Shown here piece by piece: positions 844 through 5,542 of a stretch of DNA of 56,369 nucleotides. Within the stretch, counting starts at the first letter, position 1, and the number at the start of each line of letters is the position of its first letter. The position numbers and the translations under genes are program-made. Under the pieces are notes generated by a model. The model made no database searches. It was given only the letters and a program-made list of their open reading frames with translations, and was not told where the DNA came from. This stretch comes from Nitrospinaceae bacterium (GTDB taxonomy: Bacteria > Nitrospinota_A > UBA7883 > JAJDBK01): the NCBI GenBank assembly GCA_029261405.1, contig JAJDBK010000005.1, forward strand, positions 32,001 to 88,369, read 5' to 3'.

Positions 844-1995
844 CTAGAATACGTACTGGGCCTGCACGAACATCTCATTCAGGTTGTTACCGTTATTACC
901 ATCCTTGTTTTCGTTGGTGCGGTAGGTGGCCTGAAATTTTATGTCGTGTTTATGGATAAACCAGTTCAGGCCCAACGCGGTTCTGGTCCATGGGTCGGCG
1001 TAACCATCCGCGTCCTGACTGGAGAACGCCGCTACAATTTCAAACGTGTTGTTGAACATGTATCCCCCTTCAACAGCGTAGTTGGTCAACTGGGTTTCAC
1101 CGTTCTTGTAGATTCCTTGGCTGACGTTACCGTCTACTGTGGAAGCCGAGAAGCTGTTAAATTGGGCGTCTACCGAGATTCCGGAGCTACGAAACGCGCC
1201 GCTTAACTCAAGACCTGTCACACTATCGATGTCCGGTTTGCTCCCATCACTGGTATCAACACCGCCATCGGTACGGGTGTTGTTGTCGCCGTCATTACTG
1301 AAGGAGAAGGCGGCGGCGCTTATGGTTGCCTTTGTTTCTCCGCTAAAGTCGCCCTGACTCATCTTGAGGTGTCCAAAAGGATGAAAGTTTACCCTTGCCC
1401 CTATCATGGCTCCTTCGTTCCAGTCAGAAGCGTCGTTTACAGCCGTGTCGAAGTCGAGTTTTTTTGCGTCTGGATCGATACGTCCGTCCGCTATACCGAC
1501 CGCCCATTCGAAGTTTTTATCATCAGAATGTCCCTCAAGCGAAACACCAAGCTGGCGATCAGGTGTTCCGTAGTTGTGGTCACCCACGAAAGTGCGTTCG
1601 ACGAGCTGTTGGTACTTCGACGATGTCATCATTTCACGGGAGAAGGGGATGATGAAGGCGTTTCCTATGGTGACCTTCATGTTTTCAAAACCGCTATACT
1701 GCATATAGGCGTCCTTGATAGAGACTTCGTTATCATCGTTTGATTTACCGAGATCAAACTGGAACTTTCCTTTCCAGTCCTCGTGAACGCTCCCCTCGAT
1801 AAAAGGACGCAGGCGACGGAAGAAGAGGTCATCGCTCGAATCGCCGCTGTCGGGATCCTTCTGGTGGTATTGCATCTGGATTCGCCCACCAAGTTTCACA
1901 TATTTCTCGCCATCCTTGTAGGTGACCCCGCCTGCGAATGACGGGACAGAGGTAATACAAAGAATAGTGATAGCCACAATCAACTTGTGATACAT
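844..1995 (-). CDS. OprO/OprP-like outer-membrane porin, 383 aa
   Basis: A predicted beta-barrel porin of the phosphate-selective porin O/P type. A signal peptide (TSVPSFAGG cleavage region) is followed by KLGGRIQMQYH and FFRRLRPFIEG, features of the first strands in this family. The body alternates short amphipathic strands with Asp/Asn/Gly-rich loops and ends in an aromatic residue (QAQYVF), the usual barrel-assembly signal. I start at ATG 1995, which has GGAG about 9 nt upstream; an in-frame TTG five codons earlier is less likely. Upstream is a Pho-box-like promoter (2039-2083), which supports induction by phosphate starvation. The sequence alone cannot separate phosphate from other anion selectivity. 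The two-component genes lie just upstream on the same strand. Confidence 0.82.
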   Translation of the reverse strand: MYHKLIVAITILCITSVPSFAGGVTYKDGEKYVKLGGRIQMQYHQKDPDSGDSSDDLFFRRLRPFIEGSVHEDWKGKFQFDLGKSNDDNEVSIKDAYMQYSGFENMKVTIGNAFIIPFSREMMTSSKYQQLVERTFVGDHNYGTPDRQLGVSLEGHSDDKNFEWAVGIADGRIDPDAKKLDFDTAVNDASDWNEGAMIGARVNFHPFGHLKMSQGDFSGETKATISAAAFSFSNDGDNNTRTDGGVDTSDGSKPDIDSVTGLELSGAFRSSGISVDAQFNSFSASTVDGNVSQGIYKNGETQLTNYAVEGGYMFNNTFEIVAAFSSQDADGYADPWTRTALGLNWFIHKHDIKFQATYRTNENKDGNNGNNLNEMFVQAQYVF

Positions 1996-2038
1996 TTTAG
2001 TATGCTCCAAAGGTTTAATTTGTAATCCATGTGGAGAG

Positions 2039-2083
2039 AGTATAACTGCGTACCTGTTAAGGGGGCGTTAAGTTTCCGTTAAA
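2039..2083 (-). promoter_or_regulatory. Pho-box-like promoter of the porin gene
   Basis: The minus strand carries three 8-bp direct repeats, TTTAACGG, CTTAACGC and CTTAACAG, separated by exactly 3 nt. The TTAAC cores on the plus strand (GTTAA at 2056, 2067 and 2078) have a strict 11-nt period. Ten nt further is TATACT (2039-2044), a good -10 element, with no separate -35. PhoB-family boxes have this layout of 11-nt direct repeats replacing the -35, and the CTTAAC-type repeat with 3-nt spacers resembles the cyanobacterial Pho box. The predicted start site is about 37 nt upstream of the porin ATG. Confidence 0.65.
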
Positions 2084-2089
2084 TTAGTA

Positions 2090-3487
2090 TCAGGATTCCG
2101 GATCAACCTGGTTCTGCTCCCGCACAGGCTTGCGGAGTTTTTCCCGCAGGGTGACACGCGATATACCGAGCCGTCTGGCGGCTTCTGATTTGTTGCCGTC
2201 ACAATTACTCAAAGCCTCCTCGATATACATCCGCTCCACACTCTCAAGGGGTACCCAGTTGTTGTAGACAGAGAATAACGCTCTCCTCTCCTGCTCAAAA
2301 CCTTGCGCGGTAACAGATTGGTTGAGGGAGATCTCCTTTTCGGTGATGACCTTCGACTGGGCGATGATGCAAGCTCTTTCGATTACGTTGCGAAGTTCCC
2401 GTATGTTGCCCGGCCATGCGTATTTTTTCATTTGAGTAATTGCGCTCTCTTCGATACCTTCGATATTTGTCTTCAACGCCCGGTTGAGACCTTTGATGAA
2501 GTGGGCGGCCAGGGCAGGAATGTCTTTGGTTCGATCCCGCAGAGGGGGCATGTTTATGGTGAATACGTTGAGGCGGTAGAGCAGGTCGGTCCGAAACCGG
2601 CCCTCTTCTGCGAGTTGATGGATGTTCTGGTTGGTGGCGGAAATAAGCCGAACGTCTACCGGCATATCCCTGGTGCCTCCGGCCCGTCTCAGGGATTTGG
2701 CTTCCAGTACCCTCAAAAGTTTCGGTTGCAACTCATAGTTAAGATCACCTATCTCGTCGAGGAATATGCCTCCTGAGTTCGCCATCTCAAAGATACCTTT
2801 TTTTGGATAGTTAGTCTCCTTGAAGGATACTTTTTCATTGCCGAACAGCGCCTGTTCCAGGAGGGACTCCGGGATGGAGGAGCAGTTAAGTTTAAGAAAA
2901 GGATTATGGCTTCTGGCTGAGAGGTGGTGTATCGCATTTGCGACAAGCTCTTTGCCAACACCGCTCTCGCCAAGGATGAGTACTGGCGTACTGGCCACGG
3001 AGGCCACTTGCGATATCTGCTCGCGCACACTTTCGATAGCGTCGCTCTTTCCCAGGATGTCACCCATGGCCCGCGATTCGTGATCCTTTTCATATCGAAG
3101 CCTCTGAACCTCGAATTTCAGGTTCAGGTGGGAGAAGGCCTTGTCCACAATTATCCGCAGTTCGTCAAGCTCGAACGGTTTGTTTATATAATCAAACGCC
3201 CCCTCACGCATGGCGGTAACGGCGGTCTTCACCTCCGGGTATGCGGTCATGAAAATGGCGAGAAAATCCTCTTCCATCGACGCGGCTTTTTTCCAGAATT
3301 CCAGGCCCGACATATCGGGTAGTTTCATGTCGATCAGCATCACGTCGATCGACTCCACCTCAAGTATGGCCAGAGCGTCGGCTCCGTTTTCGGCCTGATA
3401 AACCGCAAAATCCCTCTTCCTGAATACAGATGTGAGGGTCTGCCTCATGGTGAAATCGTCTTCGAGTATGAGCAGTCGCTTAGACAT
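2090..3487 (-). CDS. NtrC-family response regulator lacking GAFTGA, 465 aa
   Basis: Domains in order: a receiver (1-120; acidic D10/D11, phospho-acceptor D53, K103), an AAA+ ATPase (about 145-380; Walker A GESGVGKE at 173-180, Walker B GGIFLDEIGD at 239-248, arginine-rich sensor region), and a Fis-type helix-turn-helix near the C-terminus (NKSEAARRLGISRVTLRE). The sigma-54 contact loop is degenerate: where family members have GAFTGA this protein has VSFKET (220-225). Most activators with a lost GAFTGA either cannot open sigma-54 promoters or act with sigma-70, as in Rhodobacter NtrC or TyrR. It overlaps the kinase gene by 8 nt, so the pair is co-translated. The porin gene follows on the same strand. 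Confidence 0.9.
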   Translation of the reverse strand: MSKRLLILEDDFTMRQTLTSVFRKRDFAVYQAENGADALAILEVESIDVMLIDMKLPDMSGLEFWKKAASMEEDFLAIFMTAYPEVKTAVTAMREGAFDYINKPFELDELRIIVDKAFSHLNLKFEVQRLRYEKDHESRAMGDILGKSDAIESVREQISQVASVASTPVLILGESGVGKELVANAIHHLSARSHNPFLKLNCSSIPESLLEQALFGNEKVSFKETNYPKKGIFEMANSGGIFLDEIGDLNYELQPKLLRVLEAKSLRRAGGTRDMPVDVRLISATNQNIHQLAEEGRFRTDLLYRLNVFTINMPPLRDRTKDIPALAAHFIKGLNRALKTNIEGIEESAITQMKKYAWPGNIRELRNVIERACIIAQSKVITEKEISLNQSVTAQGFEQERRALFSVYNNWVPLESVERMYIEEALSNCDGNKSEAARRLGISRVTLREKLRKPVREQNQVDPES

Positions 3488-5495
3488 GACTTAAGGCCTG
3501 TACCGATTGTTTGGGGAAATATATCTTGAACGTGGTCCCTTCATCAATCTCACTATAGACCCGGATTTTGCCGTTATGTTTTTCGATAATGCGATGCACT
3601 ATCGATAAACCTAGCCCGGTTCCATCCGATTTGGTGGAGTAGTACGGGTCGAAAATCTTGATAAGATCCTTGTCTGGAATTCCTTTGCCGTTGTCACATA
3701 CGCTCATTTCTATAAAAGACTCCGCCTTGATCCGCTTCCCCTCCTCCATGCAGAAACAGTTTTTTCTCATCGGTCGTTTGCATGAGGAGAAGACATTTTT
3801 CAGCGAAACCTTGACTCTTCCTCTCCGCTCGCAGGCGTGTATGGCGTTTAACATCAGGTTGATAAGTATCTGTTTCACCTGTTGCGGGTCAATCATGATC
3901 TCCTCTAGCTCCGGATCGTAATACTCTTCCAACGTCACACCGCTTTCATGCGCCTGGACTTTGAGCAGGAGGCAGACTTCCGAGATTATAGTGGTCAGGT
4001 CGCACAGGACCGGTTCCGCCTCTTTTATCACGGCGAACTTGTTGAAGTTTTTAAGGAAAGCGTTCAGGCGGTCAACTTCGGAGACGATTCTTTGTAGATA
4101 CTCGCTCTGGTTGGCGCTATTTCCGCATTCAAGATGATCCTGGACCTCCTCATCCATCACCTGGGCCACGGTTTTAATGCTGGCAAGCGGATTCCCGATT
4201 TCGTGGGCCAGCTTCATGGAAAGCTCACCCAACGACGCGAGTTTATCAGCCCTGTGCAACTGTTTTTCCAGGTCGCGAATCTCGACGACTCTCGACTCTA
4301 GTTGCCTGTTCAGATCGAGGTTCCAATCCGAAAGCCGGGCCTGTTTCTCCTTAACCTGCACCCTCATGCTGTCGAACTTCTCTGCAAGCTCACCGATTTC
4401 ATCGCCGGTGTTCAAAAGGAGCGGGTTGTCGAGATATCCGTTCGCTATAAGGTCGGCTTCCATATGAAGTTTTTTTATTGGACCGATCAGCCTCCTGGCC
4501 AGGTAAAGGCCGATAAATATCCCGATAAACGCAACAAACGTAAGAAAGTAGAGCAGATTCAGGATCATGCCGGCCATGTAGGGGGTCATACTGGTCTTTG
4601 GATAGAGAGTAATCAGATACCACGAAGGTGTTTTCATCTTCCCCTCTCCCCGAATAGGGCTGAACGCCACGATATCCATACCGAAAGTCTCAATGCCGGC
4701 TGGTTTTGTCTGAATCCTTTCTGAAGTGAACGAGGGGAAAATGTCAGATATATGGACGCCGACCTCACCGACCCGACCGTCCGGTTTTCCATTCTTTGCG
4801 ATGTACATAACTTCCCCTTTTTCATTTACAAAAAGGGTGCTGAATGGCGTGTTGGGCGCCCTTACCCAATCGAATATGGCGTCCACGGAGAGGTTGACAA
4901 TGATGAGTCCCTCTATAACGCCATTGAGATAGACAGGCGTAGATATTCTTGCGACGAGTTGAAGAGGCTCTTCGATGATGGAATGTTCGATATTCAGATC
5001 GATATGGGAGAAATAGACCTCCCCCTTATTCGATTTTATCCCTTCTTTGAAATAATATCTGCCACCCTTATATTGAAGGCTACTTAAAGGAGTAAGGTAG
5101 AAAGCGCCCTCCTTGTGGTTTGAACGGATCAGTTCGGCGCCATTGCTTCCGAGGAACCTGATTTGATAATATTCCGGATGCAAACGGTTGAACTGAAGCA
5201 GATGTTTCTCCATTTCGTCACGACCACCCGGTTCACCGAGCAAAAATCGTTTGATGGATGGAGCTGACGAGAGGAAAATCACATCCTGGGTTACCCGGTC
5301 TATTTTATCCTCCACCTGGCGCACCTGCATTTTTGCGTTACTCTTCAGGTTCTGGGTAATGTTCTCCTGTAGCGAACTGACTGAAATGGACATTCCGAAA
5401 ATACCGGCGACAACGAGAGGAATCAGCCCCATGACCAGACAGACCAGTATCAGCCTGGATGTTATGTTAAGCCGAAAAAGAGAAGGATCAAACAT
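3480..5495 (-). CDS. Membrane sensor histidine kinase, 671 aa
   Basis: Partner kinase of the overlapping regulator. An N-terminal membrane helix (about residues 15-38) leads to a 270-residue extracytoplasmic region that looks like a Cache-type sensor (hydrophobic/aromatic strands, FLGSNGAELIR, YLNGVIEGLIIVNLS). A second membrane helix (about 310-338), a HAMP linker and a coiled coil follow. The H-box is LAHEIGNPLASIK (His near 430); the ATPase domain has an N-box (LINLMLNAIHA), G1 (CDNGKGI) and G2 (DGTGLGLSIV). I prefer ATG 5495 to an in-frame TTG at 5504; neither has a clear ribosome-binding site. The ligand is unknown. The gene is divergent from the DUF420 gene. Confidence 0.88.
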   Translation of the reverse strand: MFDPSLFRLNITSRLILVCLVMGLIPLVVAGIFGMSISVSSLQENITQNLKSNAKMQVRQVEDKIDRVTQDVIFLSSAPSIKRFLLGEPGGRDEMEKHLLQFNRLHPEYYQIRFLGSNGAELIRSNHKEGAFYLTPLSSLQYKGGRYYFKEGIKSNKGEVYFSHIDLNIEHSIIEEPLQLVARISTPVYLNGVIEGLIIVNLSVDAIFDWVRAPNTPFSTLFVNEKGEVMYIAKNGKPDGRVGEVGVHISDIFPSFTSERIQTKPAGIETFGMDIVAFSPIRGEGKMKTPSWYLITLYPKTSMTPYMAGMILNLLYFLTFVAFIGIFIGLYLARRLIGPIKKLHMEADLIANGYLDNPLLLNTGDEIGELAEKFDSMRVQVKEKQARLSDWNLDLNRQLESRVVEIRDLEKQLHRADKLASLGELSMKLAHEIGNPLASIKTVAQVMDEEVQDHLECGNSANQSEYLQRIVSEVDRLNAFLKNFNKFAVIKEAEPVLCDLTTIISEVCLLLKVQAHESGVTLEEYYDPELEEIMIDPQQVKQILINLMLNAIHACERRGRVKVSLKNVFSSCKRPMRKNCFCMEEGKRIKAESFIEMSVCDNGKGIPDKDLIKIFDPYYSTKSDGTGLGLSIVHRIIEKHNGKIRVYSEIDEGTTFKIYFPKQSVQALSHV

Positions 5496-5542
5496 GCCGT
5501 GCAAACCATTGTCGGATATGTGATGTATAAATATAACAGACT

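Follow-up and report, generated by a model that had tools for sequence, protein, structure and literature searches.

Our analysis indicates that the OprP-like porin gene of this Nitrospinaceae bacterium is very probably driven by a PhoB-dependent promoter of the textbook type, whose box is shared by the genome's Pst pump. The gene lies in the window, by which we mean the whole stretch of DNA analysed here (56,369 nucleotides). Because a PhoB-type site is also present ahead of the pst genes in this genome and ahead of the corresponding pore genes in distantly related bacteria, we predict that the porin is almost certainly switched on at low phosphate. This type of control is known, and is found here in a little-studied lineage. 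Where the annotation offered only the family name "phosphate-selective porin", sequence comparison thereby supports placing the gene in the phosphate-starvation regulon.

The first-pass annotation had described three TTAAC-core 8-mers with an 11-nt period and 3-nt spacers ahead of the porin gene. Reading the minus strand from 2083 to 2054 confirmed this arrangement, with the core exact in all three 8-mers and with aaa and ccc as the spacers (Table 1). The same annotation had placed the TATACT box 10 nt from the repeats; counted from the end of the last 8-mer, at 2054, the two are separated by 9 nt, GTACGCAGT. The whole minus-strand gap between the stop of the upstream regulator gene (2090) and the porin ATG (1995) reads CCTGATACtaaTTTAACGGaaaCTTAACGCcccCTTAACAGgtacgcagtTATACT. 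The possible fourth repeat overlaps the 3′ end of this regulator gene, which, together with a dCache kinase gene, forms a pair (2090-5504) directly upstream of the porin on the same strand.

Table 1. Features of the porin promoter region in the window, and gene orders around porin relatives in other genomes.
Feature	Position or locus	Strand	Basis or remark
Porin_O_P outer-membrane porin, 383 aa, signal peptide-like N-terminus, C-terminal F	844..1995	(-)	Pfam PF07396
Shine-Dalgarno-like TTGGAG, 9 nt before porin ATG	2005..2010	(-)	sequence
-10 box TATACT	2039..2044	(-)	sequence; TANNNT spacing across promoters
Pho box (predicted), direct 8-mers TTTAACGG / CTTAACGC / CTTAACAG	2083-2076, 2072-2065, 2061-2054	(-)	sequence, genome pattern search, PWM
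Possible degenerate fourth repeat CCTGATAC, in 11-nt phase with the array	2087..2094	(-)	shifted triple 14.6 bits; weak, inferred
Upstream neighbour, NtrC-type response regulator (receiver, sigma-54 AAA+, Fis HTH)	2090..3487	(-)	domain match; not beside porin relatives examined
Partner histidine kinase (dCache, HAMP, HisKA)	3480..5504	(-)	domain match
Phycisphaerae MAG, phoB-phoR-porin-pstSCAB-phoU	L079		
Kiritimatiellia MAG, phoB-phoR-porin-pstS-pstC-pstA	L080		
Gammaproteobacterial MAG, phoB-phoR-pstC-pstA-pstB-porin	L076		
Same-order genome G004, phoB-phoR-kinase-porin-pstSCAB-phoU	L082		
Genome G002, porin beside second phoB-phoR-pstCAB cluster	L083		

A pattern search of the 3.27-Mb genome for three TTAAC cores at an 11-nt period returned one exact match, the porin promoter. 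When the core was shortened to TTAA, exact triple repeats were present in only two places, namely the porin promoter and the pstS promoter. At one or more mismatches, the triple-repeat pattern was no commoner genome-wide than reversed or inverse-pattern controls, so only exact matches were used. A tied 11-nt-period weight matrix (PWM) was also fitted by EM to pstS upstream regions from 20 loci in other genomes of the same phylum; this training set contained no sequence of the porin's own genome and no porin. The matrix converged on TCTTAACA and gave the porin-promoter site 20.4 bits, the best score in the window, where the next non-overlapping site reached 8.9 bits. In order-2 random sequence totalling 6.54 Mb, the highest score was 17.1 bits. 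Sites with 2-3 mismatches were rejected as further members of the Pho regulon, as they score 9-15 bits and are no commoner than reversed-pattern controls. They precede pilM, pilin-like genes or a GalT-like gene, or fall inside coding sequence. A weak four-repeat array (CCTAAT/CTAAAT/CTTAAT/GCTAAT) located about 300 nt before pilM (L092:2151-2191; C20:44151-44189 in this genome) is probably due to chance.

The genome encodes both PhoB and PhoR, on another contig than the porin. Its pst locus, on contig C52, runs phoB-phoR-pstS-pstC-pstA-pstB-phoU, with the box located between phoR and pstS. This pstS promoter carries four repeats in a row at an 11-nt period, followed after 8 nt by TAAAAT. The first-pass annotation would have been refuted by absence of the repeat from pst and pho genes; examined in part, it withstood this test for pst, as pstS is preceded by four copies. 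The PWM detected no strong Pho box before phoB, and a PhoD gene was not found in this genome. The strongest Pho boxes of the genome appear to serve just two steps of one route, with the porin serving for entry through the outer membrane and Pst for uptake across the inner membrane.

The same pstS-trained matrix was applied to 24 Porin_O_P upstream regions, the window's own included. At period 11, 18 of the 24 regions passed a nominal shuffle p<0.01 (a single-region threshold); several of the 24 come from closely related genomes and are not independent, so that 18 is not a number of independent events. At periods of 8-10 and 12-14 nt, 0-2 of the 24 regions passed the same nominal threshold. When 29 promoters of porin or pstS genes were compared, the last repeat was followed by a TANNNT element after 8 nt in 13 and after 9 nt in 4 (17/29). 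With an 11-nt period that is specific and a -10-like element at this distance, the earlier reading of the array as having the geometry of PhoB-type activation appears sound. The array is also kept before the porin of genome G002, which is 69% identical to the window porin, and is present before porin relatives in several phyla. Within eleven genomes of the same order, the exact triple TTAA pattern occurs in 3 places, and in two of these the gene that follows immediately is phoB, at the head of phoB-phoR-pst. In two genomes of this order, G002 and G010, TTAA arrays of three and four exact copies (L083:3920-3945 and L088:4136-4172) stand directly before a second phoB-phoR-pstCAB cluster.

Relatives of the porin gene are found in or beside phoB-phoR and pst genes in several phyla (Table 1). 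In the porin tree, the window porin (844-1995) and that of G002 group, with 99/99 support, with the porins of gammaproteobacterial, Phycisphaerae and Kiritimatiellia MAGs (loci L031 and L076-L081), and stand away from most porins of their own phylum. The grouping suggests that the porin has been transferred between phyla. The conserved box and the order phoBR-porin-pst, found across several phyla, provide a simple rule for separating likely phosphate porins from the many other Porin_O_P proteins. In another genome of the same class (G018), a Porin_5 gene (L086:7094-8353) lies between phoR and pstS, where other genomes have Porin_O_P. In addition, a frame ending before a pstS-like gene in G008 and G007 (L062 and L064) resembles a C-terminal outer-membrane barrel and ends in ...LNFVVKF; these frames are perhaps another porin-pst pairing.

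In the textbook mode of PhoB action, tandem PhoB~P sits on repeats that stand in for a -35 element, and it contacts sigma-70-type polymerase at the -10 box. The fixed distance of 8-9 nt between repeats and -10 box fits this mode. Based on these observations, we infer that PhoB binds and activates the porin promoter. Under phosphate starvation, PhoR would phosphorylate PhoB, and PhoB~P would bind the three or four TTAAC repeats, spaced by 11 nt, in tandem. With the repeats replacing the -35 element, it would then recruit sigma-70-type RNA polymerase to the TATACT box. The resulting porin transcription would raise the permeability of the outer membrane to anions or phosphate at the same time as the high-affinity Pst system is induced. 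Several findings were counted against a Pho assignment. The nearest neighbours of the porin gene (NtrC-type regulator, kinase and cytochrome c) are non-phosphate genes, the -10 spacing differs between the porin (9 nt) and pstS (8 nt) promoters, phoB has no strong box and three of the eight OprP ligand residues are unmatched.

In one rival reading, the adjacent NtrC-type regulator and its kinase would control the porin through a sigma-54 promoter, or by co-transcription, with the TTAAC repeats being incidental. Both genes are directly upstream on the same strand, and only 94 nt separate the regulator stop from the porin ATG. However, no TGGCAC-N5-TTGC-like sigma-54 site with up to 2 mismatches was detected in 1996-2089. 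Further, none of the porin relatives beside pho-pst genes adjoins an NtrC-type regulator (in G002, a response regulator of the GGDEF type lies there instead), and the repeats are conserved before porins that lack such a neighbour. Since the gap holds no sigma-54-like site and the neighbour is not kept in the relatives examined, we consider control by the NtrC-type pair unlikely, with a probability of roughly one in twenty. Marginally less probable still is that the array is read by another regulator of the OmpR/PhoB family, KdpE-like or PhoP-like, that uses AT-rich repeats spaced by 11 nt. Tandem half-sites of this geometry are common to OmpR-family regulators, and E. coli KdpE reads TTTA(T/C)A (PMC3264566). 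Such a regulator would, however, leave the boxes before the genome's own pstS and before pstS and phoB of its relatives unexplained, and the motif also precedes porins inside phoBR-pst clusters. A chance coincidence of AT-rich repeats in a short intergenic region can practically be dismissed: inverse-pattern controls do match about as often once a mismatch is allowed, the weak genome-wide matches thus being noise, but at 0 mismatches only the porin and pstS sites remain, the porin site scores above the random maximum and the motif is conserved before the G002 porin and others. PhoB is the strongly favoured candidate for the regulator that reads the array.

With regard to the porin itself, the first-pass annotation had assigned it to the phosphate-selective family. 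The family part of this assignment is well supported, as the protein matches PF07396 with E=2.3e-17 and 63.8 bits (cut-off 20.9) and is the only Porin_O_P match detected in its genome. The nearest solved structures by sequence are OprP, the best PDB profile match (E=4.4e-13), followed by OprO. OprP-type porins are trimers of 16-stranded beta-barrels. A structure predicted from a seven-sequence alignment is barrel-like with a mean pLDDT of 70.5, and in a Foldseek search it retrieved OprP and OprO first, at about 16-20% identity, with other and general porins close behind. The phosphate sites of OprP are listed as comprising R34, Y62, D94, K121, S124, S125, K126 and R133 (PMC5877670). Five of these eight residues (R34, S124, S125, K126 and R133) have aligned counterparts in the window porin and in six relatives, without variation among these proteins. 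The other three positions are unmatched in the window porin, with Y62 replaced by R, D94 by K and K121 by M; across the same seven proteins, Y62 and D94 are again R and K, and the K121 position is M, L, F or G. The window porin is likely an anion pore, and because three of the eight ligand residues are unmatched, it may pass other anions. "Phosphate-selective" is accordingly a family name here, and phosphate would be the presumed substrate.

E. coli PhoB makes base contacts through T194, V197, R201 and R219 (PMC3264566). With R201 equivalents aligned by eye, taking the conserved DVH/DVQ motif as the anchor (loci L076, L079, L080, L082, L085-L088, L099, L100 and L103), the position is A in the genome's own PhoB (L019:4269-5069), A in G004 and G012, T in G018, and G in G002 and in the Phycisphaerae and Kiritimatiellia loci, giving A, G, T or F across the kin compared. 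It is R in the gammaproteobacterial locus L076 and in the neighbouring-family genomes G013, G014 and G016. TGTCA-like repeats were seen only in genomes with R at this position or in which PhoB was not seen; among the loci compared, none occurred in a genome whose PhoB lacks R201. The porin promoters carry TTAAC here and GTCA/GTAA in Gammaproteobacteria, and those of the Phycisphaerae and Kiritimatiellia MAGs carry CTAAC/CTCAT. One could speculate that this lineage reads a TTAAC code owing to the loss of R201 from its PhoB (to A, G, T or F) and that shared porin promoters are written in the letters of their host, an idea that we hold only tentatively and think somewhat doubtful. In neighbouring-family genomes whose PhoB has R201, however, the porin boxes are TGTCA-like and the pstS boxes CTTAAC-like. 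The proposal that residue 201 alone sets TTAAC versus TGTCA is weakened by this co-occurrence, and the link between residue and box is one-way at best. If the idea is correct, loss of R201 and host-lettered porin arrays would offer a natural series for the study of co-change between a regulator and its sites.

The E. coli Pho box consists of 8-bp TGTCA(T/C) repeats with 3-bp linkers, located about 10 bp before a TAN3T -10 element (PMC1906773). The window promoter shares the 8-bp repeats, the 3-bp linkers and a fixed distance to TAN3T. In contrast, its core is TTAAC rather than TGTCA, the repeats number 3-4, and 8-9 nt lie between the 8-mer end and the -10 box. The resemblance to a cyanobacterial consensus pointed out in the first-pass annotation agrees with the published box of SphR, made up of three or more direct 8-bp repeats, CTTAACCT, with 3-bp linkers and a CTTAAC core (PMC1906773). 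It is the nearest described sequence to the window array, with which it has in common at least three repeats, 3-bp linkers and the CTTAAC core. The two differ in lineage and in the ends of the 8-mers (GG, GC and AG in the window, CT for SphR), and the type found here appears to control an OprP-type porin in addition to pst.

PhoB is known to target both oprP and oprO in P. aeruginosa (PMC8025907); expression of oprO is reduced when phoB is mutated and increased at low phosphate (PMC4513871). These phosphate and polyphosphate porins share with the window porin the Porin_O_P family, their rank as nearest structures, a PhoB-type box and a presumed role in phosphate uptake. However, identity to the best PDB matches is no more than about 16-20% over the model, OprP residues Y62, D94 and K121 are not conserved, and the window gene adjoins an NtrC-type pair whereas the genes of its relatives lie inside pst clusters. 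ExtI of Geobacter sulfurreducens, annotated as a phosphate-selective porin of the same family, has a role in selenite and tellurite; of the OprP ligand residues, D94 and K121 are the only two that it retains (PMC5877670). In contrast, the window porin keeps R34, S124, S125, K126 and R133, and its gene is preceded by a predicted Pho box.
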